64,000 nt of DNA from Pelagibius sp. CAU 1746. Its GTDB lineage: Bacteria > Pseudomonadota > Alphaproteobacteria > Kiloniellales > Kiloniellaceae. Under the pieces are notes generated by a model. That model ran no database searches. It was not told where the DNA came from and saw nothing but the letters and a program-made list of their open reading frames with translations. The DNA is taken from positions 2,232,001 through 2,296,000 of the forward strand of contig NZ_JBDOQT010000001.1 of NCBI RefSeq assembly GCF_039839785.1, read 5' to 3'. Made by a program: the position numbers and the translations under genes. Numbering within the stretch: position 1 is the stretch's first letter; each line of letters opens with the position of its first letter. Positions 43,111 to 64,000 of this stretch are shown in pieces.

Positions 43111-44139
43111 GTGACCGCAGGCGGGGTCCTCGCGACACCGCTTTGCGATCTCCTCGGCTGCCGCTATCCGGTGCTGCAGGCGGGTATGGGAGGCGTCGCC
43201 CGAGCGGAACTGGTCGCCGCCGTCGCCGAGGCGGGAGGTTACGGTTTTCTCGGCATGGTGCGGGAGCCGCCGAAGCTCATCGCCGAAGAGATCGACGGGG
43301 TACGGGCGCGTACCGAGCGGCCCTTCGGTGTCAATCTCATCCCGGCGGCGACGGACCCCGGTCTGTTGACCGACCAGTTGGCCGTCTGTTTCGAGAAGGC
43401 GGTGCCGTCTCTGTGCTTCTTCTGGGAAGTGGACGCTCGCGCGGTGGCCAGCGCCAAGGAGGCCGGCTGCCAGGTGCTCTACCAGGTCGGATCGGTGGAG
43501 GAGGCGCGCGCCGCCGAGGCGGCCGGTGCCGACGCCGTAATCGTCCAGGGCTACGAGGCGGGGGGGCACGTCCGCGGCGGACTCACCTCGCTGGTGCTGC
43601 TGCCGCAGGTGGTATCGGCGGTGTCGATCCCCGTGGTCGCCTCCGGCGGTTTCGCTTCCGGCGAAAGCCTGGTCGCGGCGTTGGCGCTGGGGGCTCAGGG
43701 AATTCACTGCGGCACCGCCTTCTTGGCCACCGAGGAGTCCTTCGCGCACGGCTATCACAAGCAGCGTGTCGTCGCGGCCCGGTCGCAGGATACCTTGCAC
43801 ACCGATGCTTTCGCCATCAACTGGCCCCCGGCTTCGCCGGTGCGGGTGATCGCCAACAGCCTGACCGCCAGCCTTGGCGCGCGCCTGCACGGCTACCGGC
43901 CGGAGGACTTCGAGCGTCAGGTGGTGGCGGAGGATGCGGGGCGTCCGCTCTATCGCTTCAGCACGGACTCGCCTTTGAAGAGCACCAGTGGCGACTTGGA
44001 AGTGCTGGCCCTCTATGCGGGCCAGGTTTGCGGCGTGGTGGATCGCGTGGTCCCGGCCGCCGAGCGGATCGGGCAGATCGTTCAGGAGGCCCGCAGGACA
44101 CTGCGGCGGCTGGCGGACCGGGAGGGTGAGGGCGGATGA
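43111..44139 (+). CDS. nitronate monooxygenase (2-nitropropane dioxygenase family)
   Basis: 342 aa from the GTG at 43111 (GGAGG upstream). FMN-dependent TIM-barrel oxygenase: LGCRYPVLQAGMGGVARAELVAAVAEAGGYGFLG, VIVQGYEAGGHVRG (catalytic His region), VVASGGFASGESLVAALALGAQGIHCGTAF (FMN phosphate binding) in separate segments. It oxidises alkyl nitronates to carbonyls plus nitrite. The stop overlaps the next gene by 4 nt. Neighbouring nitrogen-oxide genes make detoxification of nitro compounds plausible. Confidence 0.9.
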   Translation: MTAGGVLATPLCDLLGCRYPVLQAGMGGVARAELVAAVAEAGGYGFLGMVREPPKLIAEEIDGVRARTERPFGVNLIPAATDPGLLTDQLAVCFEKAVPSLCFFWEVDARAVASAKEAGCQVLYQVGSVEEARAAEAAGADAVIVQGYEAGGHVRGGLTSLVLLPQVVSAVSIPVVASGGFASGESLVAALALGAQGIHCGTAFLATEESFAHGYHKQRVVAARSQDTLHTDAFAINWPPASPVRVIANSLTASLGARLHGYRPEDFERQVVAEDAGRPLYRFSTDSPLKSTSGDLEVLALYAGQVCGVVDRVVPAAERIGQIVQEARRTLRRLADREGEGG

Positions 44140-45281
44140 GCAAAGCGCCGCCGGTGCGGGCTTGGGACGAGGTGCGGAGCTGGCGCCGCGAGACCCGCGG
44201 CGCGCTGCTGGCGCGGCGGTCGTCGATTCCGCGTGGCGAAAGGCTGTTTCTGCGGCCCTTGATCGGTGGGCAGATTCACCTGCAGTTCCCCGAGCTGCGC
44301 CATGCCTGTATCGGCTTCTACTGGCCCATCAAGGCCGAGATCGACCTTCGGCACCTGGTACGGGATTTCGTGAGCCTGGGTGCTGAGGCCGCCCTGCCTG
44401 TGGTGGTGGAAAAAAACCGGCCGGTGGAGTTTTGGGCCTGGCGTCCGCGTATGAAGATGTCGCGCGGCTTCTGGAACATTCCGGTGCCGGCCGAGCGTCA
44501 TCCGGTGCGGCCCACCGCCCTGCTCGTGCCCTTGGTGGGTTTCGACGAGGGCGGCTATCGTTTGGGGTACGGCGGCGGCTACTACGACCGCACCTTGGCT
44601 GCGCTCGATCCGCGGCCGCTGACCATCGGGGTCGGCTATGCCTGCGGTCGTCTCGCGACCATCTCCCCGCAGCCGCATGACATTCCGCTCGATGCCATCG
44701 TCACCGAGGCCGGCGTGACCCGTCATCGCTACCGTGGCGTGCCGCTAACCCCCGCCGGCGTCTCCGGCGGCGGGCAGGGCCCGGCCAGCGGGACTGCGGG
44801 GGGAAGCTATGCCTCGCCGCCCTGCAGCATGCACGAGCTGGATCCCAGCTACCTCGGCTACATGAGCCGGGAGGAGACGCTTTCGTTGTTGAACGAGCTG
44901 CTGGAAGGCGAGCGTGCGGGCGCCCGCGTGCTGGCGGAAATGGGGCGCGAGGCGAGGGAGGCGGCGGAACGTGCCACCCTGCGGGACGTCGCGATGGACG
45001 AGGCCCGTTTCTGCGCCATGCTGTCCCGTCATGTCCGGCGCCTCGGCGGCTCTCCGAGTGCCGCCGTCGGCGCCTTTCACGGCAAGGTGTTGGCGCTCGA
45101 CGCGCCGGCCGAGCGCCTTACCTTGCTGAACCGCGGACAAGGCTGGGTCGTGCGTAAGCTCGAGGAAGCCTGCGCAAGGATCGCCGACGACGAACTTCTG
45201 CATGACCTTCGCGAGATGCAGCGGGTTCACGCGCACAATATCGCCCGTTGCGAAGAGCTGGTGCCGCCGCCTGGCGGATAA
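44136..45281 (+). CDS. 5-formyltetrahydrofolate cyclo-ligase fused to a DUF6306-like helical domain
   Basis: 381 aa, about twice the usual length. Residues 1-200 are a complete cyclo-ligase: an N-terminal basic region with RRETRGALLARR, then the hallmark GYRLGYGGGYYDRTLA (140-155) that binds ATP/folate. Residues 201-232 are a Gly/Ser/Pro linker. Residues 233-381 (DPSYLGYMSREETLSLLNELLEGERAGARVL...) are all helical and resemble the DUF6306 family, with ferritin-like spacing of Glu and His (LLEGERAG, MDEARFCAMLSRH). The first domain converts 5-formyl-THF to 5,10-methenyl-THF. Role of the second is unknown. Confidence 0.82.
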   Translation: MSKAPPVRAWDEVRSWRRETRGALLARRSSIPRGERLFLRPLIGGQIHLQFPELRHACIGFYWPIKAEIDLRHLVRDFVSLGAEAALPVVVEKNRPVEFWAWRPRMKMSRGFWNIPVPAERHPVRPTALLVPLVGFDEGGYRLGYGGGYYDRTLAALDPRPLTIGVGYACGRLATISPQPHDIPLDAIVTEAGVTRHRYRGVPLTPAGVSGGGQGPASGTAGGSYASPPCSMHELDPSYLGYMSREETLSLLNELLEGERAGARVLAEMGREAREAAERATLRDVAMDEARFCAMLSRHVRRLGGSPSAAVGAFHGKVLALDAPAERLTLLNRGQGWVVRKLEEACARIADDELLHDLREMQRVHAHNIARCEELVPPPGG

Positions 45282-47120: not shown

Positions 47121-48302
<1,182 letters not shown>

Positions 48303-48583
48303 GTCCGGACCGGGCCTCCTTTCCGCTTGTCGCCGCCAAGGTAACACCGGAAGGATGCCACGGGCGTTGATTTGCTGCGCGGGACGATGGCACAGCAGCG
48401 CCGGGGGGCGTACCGGCCGCCGGGAGGGGCCGGCCCGGGGCCTGCGGCGCCACCCGCAGGCCGCGATATGGGGGTGCCGGCCCGGCCGCGGGCCCGAAGA
48501 TCGAAGCGTCTCAGCCCCGCGCTGCACCCGGCAGGCCCGTAAATCGCTTGACCGGCACTGGATTCCCGCAAATAGATGGGGCG

Positions 48584-51934: not shown

Positions 51935-53341
51935 TCAGCCGCGAAAGACCCTGTCGCTCTTGCCCTTGCCGATTTTCGCTTTCAGCTGGGCGCAGAGCTG
52001 CCATTTGACGCCCGGATTGCGCCGCGCCGCCGCTTCCAGCTGCTCGCGCCACCATTCCGGCGGCTGCAGGGTGCAGTGGGCGTTCTGGCCGTCCGGCAGG
52101 AACTTCTTGGCCGGATAGCAGGCCGCCACGGCATAGACGAAGTGCCGCGCATGGCGGAACAGCTTGTCCAGCACCCAGGGGATGTCTTCTTCGGTGATGT
52201 GCTCCAGCACGTCGGTGCAGATGACGCCGTCGTACTTCGGCTCGACCGGGCCGGAGAAGGGCTCATAGCCCGGATCGTAGCACGTCACCTTGGTTGCGCC
52301 CCACTCGTCCTGCGCCTTGAAGCGCGATTCCGCCGCTTCGCCCGGGTAGGGTTTGTAGAACTGCGCCTTGCCGGAGCCGTAGTCGAGCAGCGTCGTGGCG
52401 TCGCATTCCTTGATCAGGTTGGCGATCGGGCCGACATGCTCGATCAGCGACTTGCCGGAGAAGGTCTTCTTCGCCGGGCGCCCGGCCTCGGGGGAACCTT
52501 CCTGATGCATGGTCTTGTACATCTCGACCAGCTTTTTGTAGCGCGGGCTGGGGTTCTCCTCGGTGAAGAGCGTGAAGCCGGCGGCGTCGGCCGCGCGCTC
52601 CATCTCGAACCAGACCTCGCCGTTGGGGTTCTCCTTGTATTTGAGAACCTTGGGGAAGGGACGCCAGGGCTGCATCTGCAGGGTGGTGTAGTGCAGCAGC
52701 TTGGAGACGCCGGGCTCGTACTCGTGGTCGCGGGAGTTCCAAACCCCCGGCAGCAAGCCCCAGAGGTTGTTGTCGTGCACGCGGTGACGGAAGAACTTGT
52801 GGCGTTCGCCGCGCTGGGCGTCCTCATGGTGCCAGATCTTGGACATCTTCTCGCAGTCGAGCAGCATCACTGCGGTTTCCTTTTCGGTGATGCAGAGCTG
52901 CCCGGCGCCCTTCATGTCCATATCGAAGAGCTCGGCCGGGTCGGTCAGGTAGATCTGGTCGACGTCGTTGTAGATCGCCCGGCCGGTCTTGCCCGCCAGG
53001 TCGGGGATCGCATAGCGGTAGGCCGTGAAGCCGGTCTTCCACTTCAGCCGGTCGTAACCCTTCAGATCCTTCATCAGGTAGATCTCGTAGCGCCGCGCCG
53101 GATCGCGGTGCTGCAGGACCGACCAGACGAAGATGCGTTCCGCGCGGTGCTGCGCCGGTTCGGTCCCCAGGAAGATCCGCACCGGCGGCTTCCCGCTGGG
53201 GGCGACGCCGGGGTCCGGGTCGATCGCCACCAGTTCGGGTTCGTCGCGGGTGCCCGCGGGCCGGTCACGCTCCAGCCGCAGCAGATGCCCCCATCGCTTG
53301 TGGTAGTACTTGGTCTTGAAACTCGGTTGGGCGAGGGTCAC
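51935..53341 (-). CDS. glycosyltransferase-methyltransferase fusion protein
   Basis: 468 aa from GTG 53341. Residues about 54-270 resemble a GT-A (GT8-like) glycosyltransferase: VRIFLGTEPAQHRAERIFVWSV, then RAIYNDVDQIYLTDP with the DxD metal motif (NDVDQ), then HDNNLWGLLPGVWNSRDHEYE. Residues about 310-440 form a class I methyltransferase: TTLLDYGSGKAQFYKP (SAM motif I), VTCYDPGYEPFSG, DGVICTDVLEHI. A single polypeptide that both transfers a sugar and methylates suggests modification of one surface glycan. Each half is clear in form, but neither specificity is known. Confidence 0.78.
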   Translation of the reverse strand: MTLAQPSFKTKYYHKRWGHLLRLERDRPAGTRDEPELVAIDPDPGVAPSGKPPVRIFLGTEPAQHRAERIFVWSVLQHRDPARRYEIYLMKDLKGYDRLKWKTGFTAYRYAIPDLAGKTGRAIYNDVDQIYLTDPAELFDMDMKGAGQLCITEKETAVMLLDCEKMSKIWHHEDAQRGERHKFFRHRVHDNNLWGLLPGVWNSRDHEYEPGVSKLLHYTTLQMQPWRPFPKVLKYKENPNGEVWFEMERAADAAGFTLFTEENPSPRYKKLVEMYKTMHQEGSPEAGRPAKKTFSGKSLIEHVGPIANLIKECDATTLLDYGSGKAQFYKPYPGEAAESRFKAQDEWGATKVTCYDPGYEPFSGPVEPKYDGVICTDVLEHITEEDIPWVLDKLFRHARHFVYAVAACYPAKKFLPDGQNAHCTLQPPEWWREQLEAAARRNPGVKWQLCAQLKAKIGKGKSDRVFRG

Positions 53342-53557: not shown

Positions 53558-54904
53558 TCAGATCGCCGCGGCCCCGGCCCGGCGGTACTCGTCCCAGCGG
53601 TCCTGCAGGGCCTGGCTGAGGATCACCAGCTCGCCCTGATACAGGCTCAGCGCCTCCATCAGCAGCGCCAACTCCGATTCCGCCTCGTGGCCGGGCGAAT
53701 AGGCGTTGGGAATCCTGCTGTCGCCGGGATAGCTGCCCGCCGGGTGGCTGTAGAGGTCGACCCCCGAGATGACGAGGCGGGCGGGCTGCAGCGCCACGGC
53801 GACGGCCAGCATGGCGGCGCCGTTGGTGGGGCGCACCCCGTCCCAGCGCGGTTCGGAAAGGTAGAGGCCGAAGCGCTCGATGGTGGCGTAGCGCAGGCCC
53901 TTGAGGTCTGGCCGCATCAGGCGCGTGACCAGCAGGCGGGCCTCCGACTTGATGGATTGGAGGCCGAAGATCGCGCCCTTGACCGTCGCCAAGGTCGCCT
54001 TGGAGCCGGTGAAGACCATGTCCGGCCGGGTCAGGAAGCCGCGCTCCAGCCAGCTATGGTTGACGCGGAACAGAACGTCGTACTCGACCTTGCCGACTTC
54101 CGGGGCTTCCGAGGAGGGGCCGTTGCCGAGGCAGAGGATGGTCCGCGGATCACCAAGCGCCCGGCGCAGGGCTTCGATATCGTCCAGGCGCCGGACGTGG
54201 CCGGCCAGCAGGCGGCGTAGCCGCGGCTGGGCCATGGCCCACAGCGCCAAGGCCTCCAGCCGCCGCCGGATCGGCCGCTGTTTGCTGCGGTTCAGCTTCA
54301 AGTCCTGCATCAGCAGGCGGGCCAGCACCGGCATGGCGGCTGCGGTACGGTCTTCGGCCGCACCCGCCAGCAGGCTGATCCGCTGCCGCGCCACTCCTGC
54401 TCCGGCGAGGCGGTCGGCGGCGGCGGCGTCGAGGACGAAATGGTGCTCGATGCGCTCCGGCCCGGCCCCCAGGGCCCGCGCGTCCGGCGCCGCCGCGCCG
54501 CCGGGCATCTGCCCTATGGCGGAGGGCGTGGCGCGGCGGTTGGCGGCGCGCAGGATGGGCCGGTCGCCTGGCTGCAGGTCGCCCAGGATCATCAGGCAGC
54601 GGACGTTGAGATTGATGAGGAAGCGATTGGCGATATAGGCGAAGGGCAGGGGCGGCGGCAGGACCACCGCTTGCGGATAGGCTGCGCGAAGCCATTCGCG
54701 CGTCTCCAGGTCCGGCGCGGTGAAGAGGATGTCGAGGCGCGGATAGCGCTCGGCCAATGCCGCGATCAGACAGCGCGCGGTTTCGAAGTCGCCGCGCTTG
54801 CGGCCGATGAACCAGAACGTCCGCTCCCCCGGATTGCTGGCCTGGCCGCAGCGCACCAGGAAGCCCTCCGCCGGTGCGGGGGTCTGGGGGGAGGCCTCGA
54901 CCAC
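53558..54904 (-). CDS. bipartite glycosyltransferase: Kdo-transferase-like N-half, GT42-like C-half
   Basis: 448 aa from GTG 54904 (GGAGG upstream), 2 nt after the ELM1 gene stop. The reading frame stays open far upstream, but that part has the composition of a shadow of the ELM1 gene. Residues about 28-110 (TFWFIGRKRGDFETARCLIAALAERYPRLDILFT, in parts) resemble the N-terminal domain of GT30 Kdo transferases. Residues about 230-440 resemble GT42 sialyltransferase-like enzymes: ILCLGNGPSS, DVLFRVNHSWLE, TNGAAMLAVAVALQPARLVISGVDLY. Both matches are by pattern and remote. Confidence 0.68.
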   Translation of the reverse strand: MVEASPQTPAPAEGFLVRCGQASNPGERTFWFIGRKRGDFETARCLIAALAERYPRLDILFTAPDLETREWLRAAYPQAVVLPPPLPFAYIANRFLINLNVRCLMILGDLQPGDRPILRAANRRATPSAIGQMPGGAAAPDARALGAGPERIEHHFVLDAAAADRLAGAGVARQRISLLAGAAEDRTAAAMPVLARLLMQDLKLNRSKQRPIRRRLEALALWAMAQPRLRRLLAGHVRRLDDIEALRRALGDPRTILCLGNGPSSEAPEVGKVEYDVLFRVNHSWLERGFLTRPDMVFTGSKATLATVKGAIFGLQSIKSEARLLVTRLMRPDLKGLRYATIERFGLYLSEPRWDGVRPTNGAAMLAVAVALQPARLVISGVDLYSHPAGSYPGDSRIPNAYSPGHEAESELALLMEALSLYQGELVILSQALQDRWDEYRRAGAAAI

Positions 54905-54906
54905 GG

Positions 54907-56142
54907 TCAGCGCGCCTCCACGAGCTGCCGCACGCGCTGGGTCAGGGCGTCGAGCCGGGGTGGCTGGGTCGCAGCGGCCGGCGGGCGGCCGTCGCCGAAG
55001 GCCCGGGCGACGCCCGCGGCGATCATGCCCCGGTGCATCAGCTCCAGATCGCGTGGCGGCACCACCAGCCCGCGCTGGATCAGGCCCTCGCAGAACCGTG
55101 CCCAGAGCCCCTGGTCCCCGGCAGACTTGCCGTGGCCCTGCGCGGCCTTCAGCACCCCGGTGGCCAGCCGCGCACGCAGGGATTCGGGCTTGGGCGGGAC
55201 GGGATAGATGTAGAGCGGCTTGGCGGCGCCGGCGGCCTCGGCCAGCATCGACTCGCTCTCGCCGGTTACCACCAGTATATCGGCCTGGGCCAGGTAGCCC
55301 AGATAGGGATTGTCCTGCTGGTCGCGGCGCCAGAAATGCATCGCGGCCGCGGGCGCGCCTTCTTTCAAGGCCTGCTCCACCGCGGCGCCGCTGCGCCGGC
55401 TGGTCACGCAGGTGAGGGAGCCGCCCAGGGCCTCGGCGAAGGCCTGCGCCTCGCCGGCCATGCGTGCCGCCGTCTCCGCCGTCAGGCGGTGGTGCGCGGT
55501 GGTGCCGCCCACCAGCAGGGCGACGCGCGGGCGGGCCGCGCCGTCGAAGAGATCGGGCCAGCGCGCCGCGGCAGCCTGCAGGCGCGCCGGCGTCACCTGG
55601 GTCGGCGGCAGCAGCAGTTCCAGCCGCTTGGGGTGGGCGGGCTGCTGGAAGTGGGCACAGGCGACGGAGAGATCGAAGTCCCCTGCCACGTTGGCCGCTT
55701 TGCGGCCCAGTTGCACCAGCTTGCTGCGGCCGCCGCTCTGGCGCTTGATCCAGCGCGCGATGGGGGCCGTGCGGCGGCCCATGGCGATGACCAGGTCCGG
55801 CCAAGGGGGCGAGAGGGCGTCGGAGCGTGCGGCGTCGAGCGAGAGGCGGCTGGCGCCCAGCAGTCGGTTGCTGAGGCGGTTCAAAGCCGTGAATCGCAGC
55901 TCGCGGGTCTCGTAGGGCCAGCCCAGCGCCTCGGCCAGGCCCACCGCCTGGGTGGTGTGGCCGGGGCGGTCGTCGAGCAGCAGCCACAGCCGCGGCGTCG
56001 CCGCGGGGGGACGGTCTTGGTCCGGATGGGGCACCATCTCGGCTGTGCGCGGCTCCAGAACGGGCATAAGAGGGACGAAAACCGGTGGCTTCAAGTACCG
56101 ATGGGGCGCGGCTTCCTCCACGAAATCCCGTGACAGGGTCAT
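54907..56142 (-). CDS. ELM1 family protein (glycosyltransferase-like)
   Basis: 411 aa. Features of the ELM1/mitochondrial-fission family common in alphaproteobacteria: LWLLLDDRPGHTTQAVGLAEALG, LVIAMGRRTAPIARWIK, LGRKAANVAGDFDLSVAC, VALLVGGTTAHHRL and DILVVTGESESMLAEA. The two Rossmann-like halves look like a GT-B fold. The N-terminal 30-40 residues are non-conserved; an internal start is possible. It is translationally close to the bipartite glycosyltransferase, which supports a role in cell-surface glycan synthesis. Confidence 0.85.
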   Translation of the reverse strand: MTLSRDFVEEAAPHRYLKPPVFVPLMPVLEPRTAEMVPHPDQDRPPAATPRLWLLLDDRPGHTTQAVGLAEALGWPYETRELRFTALNRLSNRLLGASRLSLDAARSDALSPPWPDLVIAMGRRTAPIARWIKRQSGGRSKLVQLGRKAANVAGDFDLSVACAHFQQPAHPKRLELLLPPTQVTPARLQAAAARWPDLFDGAARPRVALLVGGTTAHHRLTAETAARMAGEAQAFAEALGGSLTCVTSRRSGAAVEQALKEGAPAAAMHFWRRDQQDNPYLGYLAQADILVVTGESESMLAEAAGAAKPLYIYPVPPKPESLRARLATGVLKAAQGHGKSAGDQGLWARFCEGLIQRGLVVPPRDLELMHRGMIAAGVARAFGDGRPPAAATQPPRLDALTQRVRQLVEAR

Positions 56143-56263: not shown

Positions 56264-57022
56264 ATGTCTATCTTAGTTCTGGTCCGACACGGCAAGACGG
56301 AGTGGTCGAGCCAGAATCGCTTTGCCGGCTGGGCCGATGCGCCGCTGAGCGCCACCGGGGAGCAGGAGGCCCGGCTCGCCGGGCAGAGCCTGGCCGCCGC
56401 CGGCCTGCGCTTCGATCTCTGCTGCACCTCCTACCTCAGCCGGGCCACCAAGACCTTGGAAATCCTGCTGGAGGAACTGGGCCAGCGCGATCTGCCGGTG
56501 GAGCGCAGTTGGCGCCTGAACGAGCGCCACTATGGGGCCCTGCAGGGCTTCAACCGGGCCAAGATGGCGCTGCAGTACGGCAACGACAAGGTCGCGGCCT
56601 GGCGGCGCAGCTTTACCGCCGAACCGCCGGCCTTGCCGGACGGCGATCCGCGCCTGCCGTGTCTCGATCCCCTCTATGCCGGCATCGACCCGGCGCTGCT
56701 GCCGCGCGGCGAGAGCCTGGAGCAGGCGGCCGCGCGGGTGGCGCCCTGGTGGCGGGACTTCTTGGCCCCGCGTCTCGGCCAGGGCGAGAACGTCCTGGTG
56801 GTCGCCCACACCAGCAGCATCCGCGGGCTGGTGCGCGAGATCGAAGGCCTGAGCGGCGAAGAGGCCGCGGGGTTCCGCATCGCCACCGCCCTGCCGGTGG
56901 TTTACACCCTGGACGCGGGCCTGAATGTCGCCGGCCGGCGGGAATTGACCGCGGGCTGGAGCAGCCGGTTGCGCAAATTCATCAACAAGCACAAGCCGGG
57001 CACGCGGATTTCCTGGATTTAG
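56264..57022 (+). CDS. gpmA: 2,3-bisphosphoglycerate-dependent phosphoglycerate mutase
   Basis: 252 aa. Histidine phosphatase fold: LVRHGKTEWSSQNRFAGWADAPLS carries the phospho-His (His9), then RLNERHYGALQGFNRAKMALQYG and YWR-type RAAWRRSF region, and the second His in VVAHTSSIRGLV. Length and insert pattern match GpmA. It interconverts 3- and 2-phosphoglycerate. Two positions differ from the usual motif: Lys replaces Glu in RHGE(S/T), and HTSSIR replaces HGNSLR. Confidence 0.88.
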   Translation: MSILVLVRHGKTEWSSQNRFAGWADAPLSATGEQEARLAGQSLAAAGLRFDLCCTSYLSRATKTLEILLEELGQRDLPVERSWRLNERHYGALQGFNRAKMALQYGNDKVAAWRRSFTAEPPALPDGDPRLPCLDPLYAGIDPALLPRGESLEQAAARVAPWWRDFLAPRLGQGENVLVVAHTSSIRGLVREIEGLSGEEAAGFRIATALPVVYTLDAGLNVAGRRELTAGWSSRLRKFINKHKPGTRISWI

Positions 57023-57120
57023 CGGCGTTGCGCCGGGTTGGGGCAGGGCGTTGATTGTTGCCCGCCTTGCTCTTAGTTTTGAGCGCGAATCGCGTTCCTG
57101 AAGAAAAGGCAGTCCCTCAC

Positions 57121-57882
57121 GTGTTGTTCGCCAGAACGCCCTGGTCCGGCCGCAAGTACTTTCTCGACAAGATGACCCTGCGGGAGTTGGCGTGGGCCTA
57201 CGCGACCTACCCGGCGATCCAGGTCTATGCGCTACTCGGCCTCGCCGGCATCGCGCTTGCGGCCTATTGGGGCGGTGAGCCCCTGGCCCTGGCCGCGGCG
57301 GGGGCGGCGACGGTCCTGGTCTATCCCCTGGTCTGGTATCTGCTGCACCGCTTCGTGCTGCACGGCCGCACGCTCTACAAGTTTCCGCAGACCGCCGCCC
57401 TGTGGAAGCGCATCCACTTCGACCACCACCAGGACCCCAACGACCTGGGCGTCCTCTTCGGCGCGCTCTACACGACGCTGCCGACCATCCTGCTGGTCAC
57501 CCTGCCGATCGGCTGGTTGATCGGCGGGCCGGCGGCGGCGGCCCTGGCGGCGGCGGCGGGGATGCTGACGACCTGCTTCTACGAGTTCTGCCACTGCATC
57601 CAGCATCTGCCCTTCACGCCGAAGCGGGAGTGGCTGCGCCGTATCAAGCGCTATCACCTGGCGCACCACTTCCACAGCGAGCACGGCAACTACGGCATCA
57701 CCAACTACTTCTGGGACCGGCTGTTCGGCACCTTCTACGCCGAGCCCAAGACCTTTCCGCGCAGCGAGACGGTCTTCAATCTGGGTTACACCGGAGCGGA
57801 GTCCGCGCGCTTTCCCTGGGTCGCCTCGCTGTCCGGCATCGCGCCCGGCAGCGCGGTACTGCGGCGCGGCCGCGAGGAATGA
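57121..57882 (+). CDS. fatty acid hydroxylase / sterol desaturase family protein
   Basis: 253 aa from GTG 57121 (AAAAGG about 13 nt upstream); a TTG at 57055 would add 22 residues. Four TM segments hold the diiron histidine boxes HRFVLH (76-81), HFDHH (99-103), HCIQH and HLAHHFHSEHGNYG (from 179). This is the FA2H/sterol desaturase pattern, hydroxylating lipid acyl chains or related lipids. The stop overlaps the GNAT gene (ATGA). Its context suggests a lipid with an N-acyl chain. Confidence 0.85.
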   Translation: MLFARTPWSGRKYFLDKMTLRELAWAYATYPAIQVYALLGLAGIALAAYWGGEPLALAAAGAATVLVYPLVWYLLHRFVLHGRTLYKFPQTAALWKRIHFDHHQDPNDLGVLFGALYTTLPTILLVTLPIGWLIGGPAAAALAAAAGMLTTCFYEFCHCIQHLPFTPKREWLRRIKRYHLAHHFHSEHGNYGITNYFWDRLFGTFYAEPKTFPRSETVFNLGYTGAESARFPWVASLSGIAPGSAVLRRGREE

Positions 57883-59048
57883 CCGCGCCCCGGGCTTTGC
57901 GCAAGGAAGGTTCCGTGACGGTAAAGGCCGTCGAAACCCCCGGCGACCGCGAAGCCTTCATTCGGGTGCCCTGGGCGCTCTACCGCGACGATCCGGCCTG
58001 GGTTCCGCCACTGCTCATGGAGCGGCGCGACCACCTGAACCCGAAGAAGAACCCTTTCTTCCAGAAGGCCGAGGCGCGCTTCTGGCTGGCGCTGCGCGAC
58101 GGCCGTCCGGTGGGCCGTATCTCCGCCCAGGTGAACCGGGCGCACCTCGATCGCCACAACGACGCGACCGGCCACTTCGGCATGCTGGAAGCCGAAGATG
58201 ACGCCGAGACCTTCCGGGCGCTGCTGCAGGCGGCGGAAGACTGGCTGCGCGGCCGGGGACTGACACGCATCGCCGGGCCCTTCAGTCTTTCGATCAACGA
58301 GGAGTCCGGCCTGCTGGTGGAGGGCTTCCACTATCCGCCCTCTTTGATGATGGGACACGCGCGGCCCTATTATGCGGCGCGACTGGAGGAACTGGGCTAC
58401 GCCAAGATCAAGGACCTGATCTGCTACCACTACGATGCCAGGAACGACCTGCCGCCGGCGGTCGCCCATGTCATGCGCAAGGCCATGACGTCGCAGGATC
58501 TGGTGATCCGGCCGCTCGACATGAAGAACTACGCGCAGGATCTGCGCGTTATCCGCGACATCTTCAACGATGCCTGGTCGGAAAACTGGGGCTTCATCCC
58601 GATGTCGGAGGCGGACCTGCAGCACATGGCCAAGGAGCTGAAGCCCATCGTGCGCCCGCAGTCGATCGCCATCGCCGAGCTTGGCGGCGAGCCGGTCGCC
58701 ATGGCCATCGGCCTGCCCAACGTGAACGAGGCCATCGCGGATCTGAACGGGCGCCTGCTGCCCTTTGGCTGGGCCAAGCTGCTGTGGCGCCTGAAGGTCA
58801 GGACCACGAAGACCGCGCGGGTGCCGCTGATGGGGGTGCGCAAGGCCTATCACAGTTCCCTGCTGGGCGCGGCCCTGGCGATATCGGTCATCGAAAGGAT
58901 CCGCGAGTCGCAAAAGGCGCTGGGTGTGGAGAGCGGCGAGTTGTCCTGGATACTTGAGGACAACCTGCCCATGCGCCGCATGATCGAGCAGTTCGGCGGC
59001 GAAGCCTACAAGACCTATCGCATCTACGCCCGCGGGCTCGGGTCATGA
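57879..59048 (+). CDS. large GNAT-type N-acyltransferase (possible bacterial ceramide synthase type)
   Basis: 389 aa, ATGA overlap with the hydroxylase. The N-terminal region FIRVPWALYRDDPAWVPPLLMER and KKNPFFQKAEARFWLALRDGRPVGRISAQVNRAH, then INEESGLLVEGFHYPPSLMMGHARPYY, and the C-terminal SGELSWILEDNLPMRRMIEQFGGEAYKTYRIYA are the pattern of a GNAT protein group found in alphaproteobacteria. The Caulobacter bacterial ceramide synthase belongs to this kind of protein, as I recall. Hydroxylase and nucleotidyltransferase neighbours make an N-acyl lipid product plausible; the exact reaction is inference. Confidence 0.72.
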   Translation: MTAPRALRKEGSVTVKAVETPGDREAFIRVPWALYRDDPAWVPPLLMERRDHLNPKKNPFFQKAEARFWLALRDGRPVGRISAQVNRAHLDRHNDATGHFGMLEAEDDAETFRALLQAAEDWLRGRGLTRIAGPFSLSINEESGLLVEGFHYPPSLMMGHARPYYAARLEELGYAKIKDLICYHYDARNDLPPAVAHVMRKAMTSQDLVIRPLDMKNYAQDLRVIRDIFNDAWSENWGFIPMSEADLQHMAKELKPIVRPQSIAIAELGGEPVAMAIGLPNVNEAIADLNGRLLPFGWAKLLWRLKVRTTKTARVPLMGVRKAYHSSLLGAALAISVIERIRESQKALGVESGELSWILEDNLPMRRMIEQFGGEAYKTYRIYARGLGS

Positions 59049-59845
59049 GCGAGGGGACGCCGGCGCGCTTTGCCGCCCTGGTGCTGGCGGCGGACCGCGG
59101 GCCCGACGATCCGGTTTCGCGGGCCGCCGGGGTGGCGCACAAGTGCCTGGCGCCGGTCGCCGGCAAGGCCATGCTGGAACGGGTGGTCACCGCCCTGGCG
59201 GCCAGCGCCCAGATTGGCCGCATCGCCGTTTCCCTGCGCGACCCGGCGCTGCTGGGGCAACTGCCGGCCTTGGCGCCGCTGGTGGAGGAGGGGCGGCTGG
59301 TCGCCTTGCAGGCGGCGGGCTCGCCCAGCCGCAGCGTGCTGCAGGCGGCCCGGGATCTCGGCGAAGCCTTTCCGCTGCTCGTCACCACCGCCGATCACGC
59401 CCTGCTGACGACCGCGATGGTCGATCACTTCTGCACCGCCAGCCGGGCAAGCGGCGCGGCGGTGACGGCGGGGTTGACCGCCTCGGCGGAGCTGCTGGCG
59501 CGCTATCCGCAGTCCAGGCGTACCTACCTCGCGTTCAAGGACGAGCGCTATTCCGGCAGCAACCTCTTCACGCTGATGAGCCCGGCGGCACTGGCGCTGC
59601 CCGAACTGTGGCTGCGGGTCGAACGGCAGCGCAAGCAGCCCTGGCGCATCGCCGCCGTTTTCGGCCCGCTGCTGCTGCTCGGCTATTTGTTGCGCCGCTT
59701 CACCCTGGACCAGGCCATGGCGCGCGTCTCGGCACGCCTGGGGGTCGCCGTGGCTGCGGTCAAGATGCCCTTCGCCGAAGCGGCTATCGACGTCGACAAG
59801 CCCGAAGACCTGGCGCTGGTCGAAGAGATTCTGGCGAGAGCGTAA
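59045..59845 (+). CDS. nucleotidyltransferase-like protein (MobA/GT-A fold)
   Basis: 266 aa; overlaps the GNAT gene by 4 nt. The N-terminal LVLAADRGPDDPVSRAAGVAHKCLAPVAGKAMLERVV is a variant of the LAGGxGxR...K signature of NTP transferases, with the usual GG replaced. LLVTTADHALLTTAMVDHF is the metal-binding Asp region, and AAIDVDKPEDLALVEEIL the C-terminal motif. It probably couples a head group to CTP or GTP. It is convergent, 6 nt from the second nucleotidyltransferase. Confidence 0.78.
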   Translation: MSEGTPARFAALVLAADRGPDDPVSRAAGVAHKCLAPVAGKAMLERVVTALAASAQIGRIAVSLRDPALLGQLPALAPLVEEGRLVALQAAGSPSRSVLQAARDLGEAFPLLVTTADHALLTTAMVDHFCTASRASGAAVTAGLTASAELLARYPQSRRTYLAFKDERYSGSNLFTLMSPAALALPELWLRVERQRKQPWRIAAVFGPLLLLGYLLRRFTLDQAMARVSARLGVAVAAVKMPFAEAAIDVDKPEDLALVEEILARA

Positions 59846-59851
59846 ACGGGC

Positions 59852-60625
59852 TTAGGACGACTCGGCGGCAGCCAGATTGTCGTCGGGCTTGGGGCGCCAG
59901 GAGGCGACCATGCGCTTGGCCGTCTGCAGGTCCACCGGATAGTCGATCTCGCACCAGTCGCGCCCGCTGATGGTAACGGCCTGGATCTCGACCTGCGGGG
60001 CCAGGGCCGCGATGACCGAGAGGTACCACTGGCGGAGCGCCGCCGGATCGCGCATTGCGGCCTCCAGCGCTGCGGCAAAATGCCGCGGACCGTCCCCGCG
60101 GAAATACAGCATGCCGATGGACTCGCCCTGGACGCGCTCGGCCGGCAGCTTCTTGCCGATGTCGAGCAGGCGGCTGCCCTGCAGTTCCACCTTCATGTCG
60201 TCGTCGTCGTACTTCTCCTTGTGGTCCACCGCCAGGCTGACCGGGGCCGGCGGGCTGGCCAGCAGGGTCTCCAGCACTGGCAGGCTGAACAGGGTATCGC
60301 TGTTCAGCAACAGGAAGTCCCCGGCCATCTCGTGGCGGGCCATCCAGCAGGTCGCCAGGTTGTCGGCGACGCCGTAGAAGGGGTTGTAGACGCAGCGGAA
60401 GCTTGCCGAGGGCCAGCGCCGGGCAAAGCTCTCCAGACGTGCCTCGACGGCCGCCAGATTGAAGCCGGCCAGCACCACGATGTCCTCGACACCGCAGGCG
60501 ACCAGCGATTCGATCTGCCATTCCAGCAGCGATTTGCCGCCGACTTCGAGAAGGGCTTTGGGCTCCACTTCCGTGAGGGGGAGCAGGCGCTTGCCTTGGC
60601 CGGCGCCGATAATCAAGGCTTTCAA
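59852..60625 (-). CDS. sugar/choline-phosphate-type nucleotidyltransferase
   Basis: 257 aa from TTG 60625, beginning KALIIGAGQGKRLLPLTEVEPKALLEVGGKSLLEWQIESL after the start; this is the full NTP-transferase signature (GAGQGKRLLPLT). GDFLLLNSDTLFS holds the catalytic Asp, and the C-terminal WCEIDYPVDLQTAKRM is typical of phosphocholine/phosphoethanolamine-type or hexose-1-phosphate enzymes. No clear ribosome site precedes the TTG. It faces the other nucleotidyltransferase tail to tail. Confidence 0.85.
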   Translation of the reverse strand: MKALIIGAGQGKRLLPLTEVEPKALLEVGGKSLLEWQIESLVACGVEDIVVLAGFNLAAVEARLESFARRWPSASFRCVYNPFYGVADNLATCWMARHEMAGDFLLLNSDTLFSLPVLETLLASPPAPVSLAVDHKEKYDDDDMKVELQGSRLLDIGKKLPAERVQGESIGMLYFRGDGPRHFAAALEAAMRDPAALRQWYLSVIAALAPQVEIQAVTISGRDWCEIDYPVDLQTAKRMVASWRPKPDDNLAAAESS

Positions 60626-60737
60626 CGCGGAATGGATCCCAGGTGGCGATTTTTGGCTTTCACGCAGGCGGTTTTGATCACATGTTCCTTGTGTTACGTC
60701 AACCTCTGAGCTGCCCTGCGGCGGCGGACCCTGCCCG

Positions 60738-61661
60738 ATGTTCACCCTGGCCCATATCTCAGACCCGCATCTCGGCCCCTTGCCGAGGGTTCGTGTCAGA
60801 GATCTGATGAACAAGCGCTTTTTCGGCTGGCTGTCGTGGATGCGGCGGCGCCGGGGTATCCACCGGCTGGAGGTGCTGGCGGCCCTGGCCGAGGACCTGG
60901 GTACTCTCGCGCCCGACCATCTGGTGGTGACCGGCGATCTGACCAACATCGCTCTCCTGGAGGAGTTCTCGCGGGTCGCCGAGTGGCTGCAGGGCCTGGG
61001 GACGCCGGAGGGCGTCTCAGTGATCCCGGGCAATCACGATGCCTATGTGGCGGTGCCCTGGGAAACGTCGCTGGCCAAGTGGCAGCCCTTCATGACCTGC
61101 GAGGCGGGGCAGGGCGGCGATGCCGGTGCTGATGCCAGCCACCGCGGCGGGCCGGAAAGCTTCCCCTTCGTGCGCTACCGCGGCCCGGCGGCCATCGTCG
61201 GCCTCTCCTCGGCCCAGGCGACGCCGCTGTTCTGTGCGCACGGCACCTTGGGGACGGCGCAACTGGAGCGCCTCAGGACGCTGCTGCGGCGCCTCGGCGA
61301 AGAGGGGCGGTTCCGCGTCGTGCTGCTGCACCACCCGCCGAGCCTGGACAACATCGCCTGGCGCAAGCGTCTGGTGGATGCAGTGCCTTTCCGCGAGGTG
61401 ATCGCCGAGGCGGGTGCCGAGCTGATCCTGCACGGCCACGACCACAACTTCGGCGTAGAGCGGATCCCAGGGCCCGGGGGCGATGTGCCGGTGATCGGCG
61501 TGCCCTCCGCTTCCGCCGGCCGGGCAAGCAAGCATCCGATCGCCCACTACCAGCTCTACGATATCGAGCGCGACGGCAAGGGCTGGCGCGTCGGCGTCAG
61601 GGCGCGGGGCTTCGACGCGGCCCGCGGCTGCTTCCAGGAGGCCCGCAGCTACGCGCTGTAA
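60738..61661 (+). CDS. metallophosphoesterase
   Basis: 307 aa, calcineurin-like phosphoesterase. Metal motifs: AHISDPHLGPL (Asp8, His10), VVTGDLTN (Asp60 region), PGNHDAY, and HGHDHNF at the C-terminal side; a central LLHHPPS is also typical. It hydrolyses a phosphoester or a pyrophosphate such as CDP-linked lipids. It is adjacent to two nucleotidyltransferases and may supply or remove phosphate in the same pathway. Confidence 0.9.
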   Translation: MFTLAHISDPHLGPLPRVRVRDLMNKRFFGWLSWMRRRRGIHRLEVLAALAEDLGTLAPDHLVVTGDLTNIALLEEFSRVAEWLQGLGTPEGVSVIPGNHDAYVAVPWETSLAKWQPFMTCEAGQGGDAGADASHRGGPESFPFVRYRGPAAIVGLSSAQATPLFCAHGTLGTAQLERLRTLLRRLGEEGRFRVVLLHHPPSLDNIAWRKRLVDAVPFREVIAEAGAELILHGHDHNFGVERIPGPGGDVPVIGVPSASAGRASKHPIAHYQLYDIERDGKGWRVGVRARGFDAARGCFQEARSYAL

Positions 61662-61667
61662 GCGGTG

Positions 61668-62231
61668 TCAGCCCTGGAGATAGAGGATCGATATGCGGAG
61701 GCTGGTAAGGCCGCTGTCGATGCTGAACAGCGTTTCCTCCAACTCCGGCTTGCCGAAGCGGAAACCGGGATTCTGGGAGAAACCGTAGCCTTCGGTGGGG
61801 ATGCCGAGGAAGTCCCGGTCGAATTTCTTGTTCCCGTTCTCGTCATGATAGAGTGCAACCGAATAGCGGCCGTTGGCGGGGGCCTCCAGGCAAAGCACGG
61901 TTTCGCCCTCATGGGCCTCGACCCGGATCCGGTCGAGCCTCTTGCCGCTCTTCAGGAAGGTCTCGGGGTCGTCCGAATAGAGAACGGCGGTGATCAGGCC
62001 CTTGGAGTTGCGAACGTTGTCCACCGTCACCTGGATCGTGCTGGCCGCTGGATCGCTTGCGGCCGCCACCGGGGCGGTGCATTTGGCCTCCAGGGGTTCC
62101 TCGCCCCGCGCCGGGGAGGATCCGGCCCAGGTCAGGGCGGCGGCGGCGAAGACGGCCGTCAGCAGGGGCAGGAAGGCATCTTTTGTCTGGACCGTACGGG
62201 AACTGGGACCCATCTTCGCATTCCCATTCAT
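61668..62231 (-). CDS. DUF2141 domain protein, secreted
   Basis: 187 aa from the ATG at 62231 (longer and shorter starts exist). A hydrophobic signal segment (FLPLLTAVFAAAALTWAGSSPARGE) sends it to the periplasm. The DUF2141 domain is clear: QVTVDNVRNSKGLITAVLYSD, LEAPANGRYSVALYHDENGNKKFDRDFLGIPTEGYGFSQNP in adjacent parts. The acidic DENGNKKFD loop resembles a calcium-binding site. Function unknown; relatives are often found near carotenoid or lipid genes. Confidence 0.85.
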   Translation of the reverse strand: MNGNAKMGPSSRTVQTKDAFLPLLTAVFAAAALTWAGSSPARGEEPLEAKCTAPVAAASDPAASTIQVTVDNVRNSKGLITAVLYSDDPETFLKSGKRLDRIRVEAHEGETVLCLEAPANGRYSVALYHDENGNKKFDRDFLGIPTEGYGFSQNPGFRFGKPELEETLFSIDSGLTSLRISILYLQG

Positions 62232-62355
62232 TGCAAGCCGGAAGGATGCCCGAGGCGGCACCATCTGATATTACGGGGCGGGGGCGGTTGCCATCCCCCC
62301 GCGGCTCCCGCGAGAGCCCGGGCCAGCGTCAGTTCAAGCGAGGTATGACCGCAGC

Positions 62356-62814
62356 GTGACTTTGTCAAGTAAGCCCAACGAGACCATGGCCAAGTTCGGC
62401 TACCCCGGCAGCCTGATCCGCGATTACCGCCGCTGGGTGGTGCTGCTGCGCCCGCATCAGGCGACGCTGGCCGCCCTGGTGCTGGTTTGCAAGGACGAGG
62501 CGCAGGCCTTCGGCGACATCTCGGGCGAAGCCTTCGCGGAGTTGCAGCAGGTGATCGGCGACATCGAGGCGGGGCTCGGCGCCTTCCGCCCCTATCGGAA
62601 GATCAACTACCTGATGCTGATGATGGTGGACAAGGACGTGCATTTCCACGTCCTGCCGCGCTATGACGCGGCCCAGGAGTTCCAGGGACTCGTCTTCGAG
62701 GACACCGGCTGGCCGGCGGCCCCGGCGCTCGCCGGCGGCCTCCATCCGGAGCCCGCGGAGCTGGACGAACTGGCCGCTGCGGTAAGGGCGGTTTGGCCGG
62801 CCCCGGCCGGCTGA
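62356..62814 (+). CDS. HIT-family hydrolase/transferase
   Basis: 152 aa from GTG 62356; the ATG at 62386 is an alternative. The histidine-triad motif is DVHFHVLPRYD, close to HxHxHxx but with Val/Phe and a final Pro-Arg instead of the third His, as in a subgroup of HIT proteins. The N-terminus KFGYPGSLIRDYRRWVVLLRPHQATLAALVLVCKD is typical. It may cleave nucleotide-linked compounds. Confidence 0.85.
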   Translation: MTLSSKPNETMAKFGYPGSLIRDYRRWVVLLRPHQATLAALVLVCKDEAQAFGDISGEAFAELQQVIGDIEAGLGAFRPYRKINYLMLMMVDKDVHFHVLPRYDAAQEFQGLVFEDTGWPAAPALAGGLHPEPAELDELAAAVRAVWPAPAG

Positions 62815-62843
62815 CGAGAACGGAGAGCGTTAGCGGCCCTGCC

Positions 62844-64000
62844 ATGTCGACCATCAACAGCTACATCCTGCGGCAGACGCTGGGTCCGCTCTTCGCGGCC
62901 ATCGGCATCGCACTGCTGGTATTGCTGACCGAGCGCATGCTGCGGCTGCTCGACCTGGTGCTGGATACCGGCGGCGGGCTGACGGTGTTGCTGCAGATGC
63001 TGGCCTTCCTGGTGCCGCACTACATGGCTTTGGCGCTGCCGGTCGCCTTCTTTCTTGGCGTGCTGCTGGCTTTCAGCCGCCTGCACCACAGCCGTGAGTT
63101 GGACGCGCTCGGGTCGGCGGGCATCAGCCTGTCGCGCCTCATGGTCCCGGTGGTCCTTCTGGGGATCGGCCTTTCGGTCCTCTCGGCAGCGAATTTCGCA
63201 GTGGGCCAACCCTACACGCGCTACATCTATCGCGCCCTGGTGCACAATGTGTCGGAGGCGGCGGCGAACGTCTATCTGAAGGAGCGAACCTTCATGGAAG
63301 TGAAGGGCGTGACCTTCATGGCCGAGCGCATTTGGCGCAACAGTCAGGAGTTTGCGAAGGTCTTCATCTACCAGGAGGACGACAAGGGCCAGGCGATCGC
63401 GACGACGGCCGAGCGAGGCAGCCTCCACGTGGCCCCGAAGGGCGAGCAGTCGACCTTGCTGCTGCGTGACGGCGTGCGGCTGGAAACGCCGATCGAAAAG
63501 CCGGACGAGGCCGGGGCGGAGAGCCGCAGTTCCGCCGGCCAGGCAGGCGCCCTGCAGTTCGACCAGCTTCAGGTGCCCATCGACCTGGTGGGACAAGAGG
63601 GGTTCCGGCCGCGCGGCGAGGATGAACGCGAGCTCACCCTCTTCGAGCTTTGGCGCTATCGCCACGCACCGCCGCAGGGGGTGACGACGGACCAGATGCT
63701 GGCGGACTTCCACGATCGCCTCGTGCGCAGCTTCTCCGTTCTCTTTCTGCCTTTCCTGGCGGTGTCCTTCGCCCTGGGGCCGCGGCGTGCGCGGCAGTCC
63801 TACGGCATCGCCGCGGGCCTGCTGATTCTGGTGGCCTACAATCAGGCCCTCAGCATCGGCAAGTCGCTGGCTTCTATCGGCAGCGTGCCGCCTCTTCTCG
63901 GGCAATGGCTGCCTTTCGCCGCCCTGGCGCTGGGCAGCGCCTGGCTCTACTACCGCAGCGCTTTCGTGGTGCCGCCGGGCGGCGCCGGCCGTTTCTCTCC
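62844..64000 (+). CDS. lptF: LptF, LPS-export ABC permease (partial, runs off right edge)
   Basis: 386 codons visible, no stop. YjgP/YjgQ family: N-terminal TM (TLGPLFAAIGIALLVLLTERML), MALALPVAFFLGVLLAFSRLHHSRELDALGSAGISL, a periplasmic beta-jellyroll region (about 130-280), then C-terminal TM segments (SFSVLFLPFLAVSFALGPRRARQSYG onward). With LptG and LptB it extracts LPS, or in some alphaproteobacteria perhaps another outer-membrane lipid. The residues seen so far match LptF more than LptG because of the TINSYILRQ start. Confidence 0.9.
   Translation, partial: MSTINSYILRQTLGPLFAAIGIALLVLLTERMLRLLDLVLDTGGGLTVLLQMLAFLVPHYMALALPVAFFLGVLLAFSRLHHSRELDALGSAGISLSRLMVPVVLLGIGLSVLSAANFAVGQPYTRYIYRALVHNVSEAAANVYLKERTFMEVKGVTFMAERIWRNSQEFAKVFIYQEDDKGQAIATTAERGSLHVAPKGEQSTLLLRDGVRLETPIEKPDEAGAESRSSAGQAGALQFDQLQVPIDLVGQEGFRPRGEDERELTLFELWRYRHAPPQGVTTDQMLADFHDRLVRSFSVLFLPFLAVSFALGPRRARQSYGIAAGLLILVAYNQALSIGKSLASIGSVPPLLGQWLPFAALALGSAWLYYRSAFVVPPGGAGRFS

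Follow-up and report, generated by a model that had tools for sequence, protein, structure and literature searches.

A contiguous Pelagibius gene cluster for predicted synthesis and export of phosphosphingolipids, with a candidate ceramide hydroxylase and a variant phosphoglycerate mutase

The subject of our analysis is a cluster of lipid genes at the right end of a 64,000-nucleotide stretch of the Pelagibius sp. CAU 1746 genome (G000:C1:2232001-2296000; "the window"), for which we also read the next 26 kb to the right (L009 and L010). A preliminary description made from the window's sequence had listed a hydroxylase, a GNAT protein, two nucleotidyltransferases, a phosphoesterase, and LptF at this place, all of which were confirmed by Pfam matches and coordinates (Table 1); the hydroxylase start given there, 57121, is a GTG codon inside a longer open frame. 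Three genes of the cluster had gone unmentioned, encoding a phosphoglycerate mutase, a DUF2141 protein, and a HIT-domain protein. Genes for serine palmitoyltransferase, an acyl carrier protein (ACP), and a reductase had been expected beyond the right edge, and Spt, ACP, and a CerR-type reductase are indeed present together with a fatty acyl-AMP ligase 4.4 to 8.9 kb past it. The suggestion that the window holds the modification and export half of a ceramide phosphoglycerate pathway was accurate, with LptG2 and homologues of CpgA, CpgB, and CpgC following past the edge, which splits a complete, contiguous bacterial sphingolipid gene cluster.

Table 1. Genes of the cluster and, below them, of its left flank, on the scale of the window (positions past 64000 are the L009 position plus 54000).
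Feature	Position	Strand	Match or remark
Variant 2,3-bisphosphoglycerate-type phosphoglycerate mutase (cluster-type dPGM)	56264-57022	+	TIGR01258, 259.6 bits (cut-off 81.7)
Scs7/FA2H-like membrane fatty acid hydroxylase	open frame 57055-57882, likely GTG start 57121	+	PF04116, E 2.8e-23
Bacterial ceramide synthase CerS/bCerS (GNAT), CC_1154 orthologue	57879-59048	+	PF00583
CofC/MobA-like nucleotidyltransferase, CC_1153 type	59045-59845	+	NTP_transf_3; weak TIGR03552 CofC
CpgD-type CTP:phosphoglycerate cytidylyltransferase, CC_1152/CCNA_01210 type, TTG start	60625-59852	-	MobA/NTP_transf_3; best PDB match CTP:phosphocholine cytidylyltransferase
Calcineurin-like metallophosphoesterase (MPE), CC_1158 type	60738-61661	+	PF00149; 46% identity to L161, same position
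DUF2141 protein	62264-61668	-	PF09912, E 1.7e-29
HIT-domain protein (MVDxDVHFHVxPRY)	62356-62814	+	homologues match PF01230
LptF2 permease	62844-64076, crosses window edge at 64000	+	PF03739, E 3e-68
LptG2	64124-65206	+	right of window
CpgA, CDP-alcohol phosphatidyltransferase	65327-66493	+	right of window
CpgB, DAGK-type kinase	66490-67491	+	right of window
CpgC	67495-68415	+	right of window
Spt, serine palmitoyltransferase	69673-68459	-	NF047599, 636.6 bits (cut-off 500)
ACP	69929-69678 (L009 15678-15929)	-	beside Spt
CerR-like reductase	71057-70047 (L009 16047-17057)	-	beside Spt
Fatty acyl-AMP ligase (AasR)	72914-71118 (L009 17118 to L010 914)	-	beside Spt
Mito_fiss_Elm1 gene (ELM1)	54907-56142	-	PF06258; left of cluster
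kdo-transferase-N-like gene	53558-54880	-	left of cluster
Large gene	51935-53341	-	no Pfam match; left of cluster
Class I/II aminotransferase	47121-48527	-	left of locus
5-FTHF (5-formyltetrahydrofolate) cyclo-ligase fused to DUF6306	44136-45281	+	left of locus

The identities of these genes and their membership in the cluster rest on sequence, gene order, and kinship. Spt exceeded the curated threshold for its equivalog family (proteobacterial serine palmitoyltransferase), and ACP, acyl-AMP ligase, and CerR-type genes also stand beside Spt in Caulobacter endophyticus (L161) and other loci. The GNAT protein returned no relative when used as a PDB query; about 50% identity and a shared gene order with CerS of Caulobacter endophyticus place it with the ceramide synthases, the kind to which it had first been compared. 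Other homologues in that species are 30% (CpgB), 41% (CpgC), 47% (CpgA), and 48% (CpgD) identical to those of Pelagibius, and its genes are arranged as CpgC-CpgB-CpgA on the minus strand followed by the phosphoesterase, DUF2141 (minus strand), HIT, LptF2, LptG2, CerS, and the CC_1153-type nucleotidyltransferase. The Pelagibius arrangement itself is repeated in the genomes of six other members of the genus and in another family within the order; since it thus recurs in these genomes and, for the most part, in Caulobacter endophyticus, the packing of the genes is not due to chance. A scan of 56-64 kb for promoters and terminators found such sites to be no more numerous than in shuffled sequences.

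The corresponding phosphosphingolipid cluster of Caulobacter crescentus (CC_1168-CC_1152, or CCNA_01210-01223), which includes a flippase gene (CC_1166), is known from previous work that established roles for Spt, CerS, CpgB, and CpgD and found CpgA, CpgC, CC_1153, and CC_1158 to be required or contributing (PMC11324152, PMC12275187). Judged by its gene content and local gene order, which correspond to those of CC_1165-CC_1152, the Pelagibius locus is almost certainly a ceramide phosphoglycerate locus of the Caulobacter kind, and very probably one that holds the module for ceramide diphosphoglycerate (CPG2). We propose that it makes the anionic phosphosphingolipids ceramide phosphoglycerate and CPG2 and exports them to the outer membrane. 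AasR, ACP, Spt, CerR, and the GNAT ceramide synthase would build the ceramide backbone, the N-acyl chain of which the Scs7/FA2H-like di-metal enzyme is predicted to hydroxylate. CpgB would then phosphorylate the ceramide, and the Tam41-like CpgC would probably convert ceramide-1-phosphate to CDP-ceramide. The variant mutase would make 2-phosphoglycerate, which CpgD would activate to CDP-glycerate for CpgA to attach as the second phosphoglycerate. Completion of the head group would fall to the CC_1153-type transferase and the phosphoesterase, probably joined by the HIT protein, and LptF2/LptG2 would presumably carry the lipid outward.

Several components of the locus could be placed by comparing 139 loci in all, including 52 CerS loci from 385 genomes of the class. 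The CC_1153-type nucleotidyltransferase directly follows CerS in most loci and keeps the DHALL and DVDKPEDL motifs, while the CpgD-type protein is 46-48% identical to the Caulobacter copies with alignable GQGKRL, YDDDDMK, and ESIG motifs. CpgB and CpgC occur together in 61 loci, 22 of which lack CpgA, CpgD, and HIT alike; the 39 loci with CpgA mostly also have CpgD (29/39) and HIT (26/39), and no locus compared has CpgD or HIT without CpgA. This co-occurrence (Fisher p near 1e-8, a value that ignores kinship and incomplete stretches) shows the same pattern by family, and the distributions of the phosphoesterase, LptF2, and the hydroxylase do not track that of CpgA. In Caulobacter, attachment of the second phosphoglycerate depends on CpgA and CpgD (PMC12275187), so the HIT protein probably belongs to this step and, by its distribution, to the CPG2 module. 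All 22 of the 22 HIT homologues that we aligned match PF01230; the family has a near-invariant stretch, NYLMLMMVDxDVHFHVxPRY, in which the first triad histidine is apparently replaced (the position preceding VHFH is variable, with D, H, or an E-type residue). The genus and Caulobacter endophyticus alike keep the DUF2141 gene between the phosphoesterase and HIT genes; the Caulobacter endophyticus copy lies at 6.7 kb on the minus strand with 38% identity, and DUF2141 genes also occur near CerS or Spt in L057, L064, L141, L142, L148, and L168.

CpgC found no relative in a single-sequence search of the PDB and was then placed by a fold search. Its model (pLDDT 93.9) best matched the CDP-diacylglycerol synthase Tam41 with bound CTP-Mg (7ecd; E 1.6e-8, TM 0.54-0.59), and 6/30 CpgC homologues match the Tam41 family PF09139. 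In line with an earlier InterPro hint (PMC11324152), these matches support an assignment as CTP:ceramide-1-phosphate cytidylyltransferase, and we regard CpgC as somewhat more likely than not a CDP-ceramide synthase.

The phosphoglycerate mutase scores well above the curated mutase cut-off, and a separate glycolytic iPGM is encoded elsewhere in the genome. Six other genomes from the genus (L197-L202) all have the gene in one place, between ELM1 and the hydroxylase gene. A sister genus (G438, L207, L218) has it there too, as does another family (f175; G392, L203), in which the protein is around 50% identical. Within the order, 9/9 cluster-type copies adjoin the hydroxylase-CerS pair, and none was found in the family's genomes without CerS. 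In an unrooted tree, a branch supported at 100/100 sets the cluster mutases, including the copy of G392 on a long branch, apart from the other sequences, among them G392's own free dPGM. Where canonical enzymes have RHGxSxWN, AHGNSLR, and IPTG, the cluster clade has RHGKTEWS, AHTSSIR, and IATA, with RHGxTxW(S/G), AHT(S/A)SIR, and IATAxP shared by all copies. All except that of G392 also carry a basic C-terminal tail ending in ISW (KHKPGTRISW in the window), whereas free dPGMs of the order read AHGNS(L/I)R and lack such a tail. Kept in the mutase are the catalytic histidine of RHG, the glutamate of NERHYG, the second histidine (of AH), and the WRR phosphate clamp. The preferred substrate of Caulobacter CpgD is D-2-phosphoglycerate, and the authors of that work, who described the isomer used in vivo as uncertain (PMC12275187), suggested that a dedicated phosphoglycerate enzyme still to be identified may exist (PMC12275187, PMC13228409). 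We found no publication in the open-licence literature that links the mutase, sphingolipids, and a gene cluster. Going by these sequence comparisons, the mutase likely serves the sphingolipid pathway; that it does so by supplying 2-phosphoglycerate to CpgD is a plausible proposal at slightly less than even chances.

The changed motifs leave room for an enzyme that may act as a phosphatase or on a lipid. Members of the histidine phosphatase superfamily are often phosphatases, and in a CPG2 locus such a protein could make glycerate or trim a phosphate from the head group. That the altered active-site motifs are common to the whole clade and that its basic tail could touch the membrane or an anionic lipid would fit this alternative, but the intact catalytic residues and clamp and the score far above the mutase cut-off make it unlikely, though it is the strongest competitor. 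We give still less credit to the idea that the mutase is a passenger, i.e., a second glycolytic gene copy that came to lie beside the cluster by chance and was inherited with it. Most other families lack the gene in their clusters, and it stands near no other CerS among the 52 loci of the class, as expected for a passenger, but it holds one place across two genera and family f175 at around 50% identity, is missing from relatives without CerS, and differs in clade and motifs from the normal dPGM that G392 keeps elsewhere.

For the hydroxylase, the evidence comes from its position and its relatives. In 33/52 alphaproteobacterial CerS loci, it immediately precedes CerS in the same orientation, the distance between the two genes mostly falling between -35 and +44 nt, and in the window an ATGA overlap joins its stop codon to the start of CerS, an arrangement by which the two are, reading from the sequence, translationally coupled. 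Altogether, the gene is present in 60/139 loci that cover 22 numbered families, Nitrospirales, and some gammaproteobacterial metagenome-assembled genomes (MAGs), with related genomes counted separately rather than as independent events; it was not seen in the Caulobacter or Azotobacter loci that we compared. The Pelagibius genome has only two PF04116 genes. A profile search of the PDB with the hydroxylase returned the yeast ceramide very long chain fatty acid hydroxylase Scs7p as its sole match (E 7.6e-28), and Foldseek with the AlphaFold model (pLDDT 86.5) matched Scs7p (4zr0/4zr1; E 2.3e-5, TM ~0.54), to which all PDB entries with E <0.001 belong. Ten histidines are invariant in 23 hydroxylase sequences and align to Scs7p (H98, H103, H121, H124, H125, H180, H184, H201, H204, and H205), and the di-metal histidine boxes HxxxxH, HxxHH, HxxxH, and HxxHH are all present.

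These features give us good confidence in the prediction that the enzyme acts on ceramide as an N-acyl hydroxylase, and the hydroxylated carbon may be C-2 or another. PF04116 spans many substrates, and the enzyme could in principle work on an ornithine lipid, carotenoid, hopanoid, or sterol and merely travel with CerS. We consider this improbable, given the tight coupling to CerS across 22 families, the occurrence of the gene in loci that have the CPG2 module as well as in loci that lack it, and the lack of any PDB relative other than Scs7p; a match to NCBIfam OlsE, which would favor ornithine lipids, is very weak (20 bits versus a cut-off of 475).

The genome encodes two LptF/LptG pairs, and since the canonical one lies separately at 2.610-2.613 Mb, the pair in the cluster is LptF2/LptG2. 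With LpxC also present away from the cluster, the cell should make both lipopolysaccharide (LPS) and sphingolipid. That the locus instead makes LPS or a capsule and that its LptF is the ordinary LPS permease might be argued from ELM1, the kdo-transferase-like gene, and other possible glycan genes on the left. We rejected this reading as having next to no likelihood because LptF/G and LpxC have these separate canonical copies and Spt is above its cut-off, with Spt, CerS, CerR, AasR, and CpgA-D all inside the cluster.

Some observations weigh against parts of our interpretation. Caulobacter makes CPG2 without a mutase in its cluster and is reported to perform N-acyl hydroxylation with the unrelated DesA-type CC_0202, which is encoded elsewhere (PMC11324152), so that neither the hydroxylase nor the mutase is needed in general. 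The changes from AHGNS to AHTSS, from IPTG to IATA, and from N to S/G after RHGxTxW mean that the mutase may not be a plain mutase of 3- and 2-phosphoglycerate. Caulobacter also has LptC2 (CC_1168) at its locus; by Pfam, a search that a diverged copy could escape and that did not target CC_1168 directly, the Pelagibius genome has one LptC only, away from the locus. However, published clusters of beta- and gammaproteobacteria also lack CC_1168, which therefore does not define this kind of cluster. On balance, we regard the full explanation, a locus for CPG2 synthesis and export with both a hydroxylase and a mutase step, as probable. More tentatively, the mutase could be a neofunctionalized, pathway-dedicated enzyme of the histidine phosphatase family that sets the phosphoglycerate isomer of the head group (or reworks the lipid) and, at the same time, the Scs7-like gene a widespread bacterial ceramide hydroxylase.

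If this were true, bacteria would pair a ceramide synthase unrelated to the eukaryotic one with a hydroxylase that is homologous to its eukaryotic counterpart. The hydroxylase-CerS pair would name a likely ceramide hydroxylase of the human FA2H family for around 20 alphaproteobacterial families and beyond, and the N-acyl hydroxyl group has been linked to colistin sensitivity in Caulobacter. CPG2, the synthesis of which is partly worked out, helps Caulobacter survive without LPS; for this pathway, the cluster mutase is a concrete candidate for the dedicated phosphoglycerate supplier, pointing to 2-phosphoglycerate, and the HIT gene adds a new candidate for CPG2 steps.

To the left of the cluster, ELM1, the kdo-transferase-N-like gene, and the large gene keep their position in the genus and in G392, and ELM1 also adjoins the hydroxylase-CerS pair in L058, L059, L062, and L111; this trio could glycosylate the sphingolipid. 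Elsewhere in our sample, G159 (L053, L098), G264, G341, and G408 have two CerS-like matches per genome. In G159, the second match is ~39% identical and neighbors an Spt-like gene, suggesting that this genome has a second sphingolipid-like pathway. CerS clusters were also seen on contigs whose titles name Desulfobulbaceae, Desulfuromonadales, Geobacter, Nitrospirales, and Gemmatimonadetes (L113, L115, L119, L125, L130, L147, L155, L158, and L179), outside the alpha-, beta-, and gammaproteobacterial group usually described; some are perhaps MAG binning errors, and Desulfoprunum L130 is an isolate.

Compared to Caulobacter crescentus, the Pelagibius locus has the ceramide genes aasR, cerR, acp, spt, and cerS, the CPG2 genes cpgA, cpgB, cpgC, cpgD, CC_1153, and CC_1158, as well as lptF2 and lptG2 in common, but its blocks are rearranged and gathered into a single 16-kb stretch with the addition of the mutase gene and of a hydroxylase gene that overlaps cerS. 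The string from the phosphoesterase over DUF2141, HIT, and LptF2 to LptG2 has the same order in Caulobacter endophyticus, while CerS and the CC_1153-type gene are shifted to the front in Pelagibius; CC_1157 is probably either the HIT or the DUF2141 gene. CpgC shares the CTP-binding nucleotidyltransferase fold of Tam41 (7ecd, 6ig2) at only ~15% identity and with ceramide-1-phosphate as its proposed substrate. The mutase resembles dPGM/GpmA (TIGR01258; 1e58, 3lnt, 5vve) in its catalytic His, Glu, and Arg residues and is 45-48% identical to the free dPGMs of the order, but differs by the clade-specific AHTSSIR, IATA, and WS/WG changes, the basic C-terminal tail, and its position inside a sphingolipid cluster. 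Finally, the hydroxylase is like yeast Scs7p and human FA2H (4zr0, 4zr1) in fold and histidine-box pattern, but it has no cytochrome b5 domain, and its gene accompanies one for a ceramide synthase of the GNAT type, which has no kinship with the eukaryotic ceramide synthase. Two unrelated hydroxylases, Scs7-like here and DesA-type in Caulobacter, likely fill one role in different lineages.

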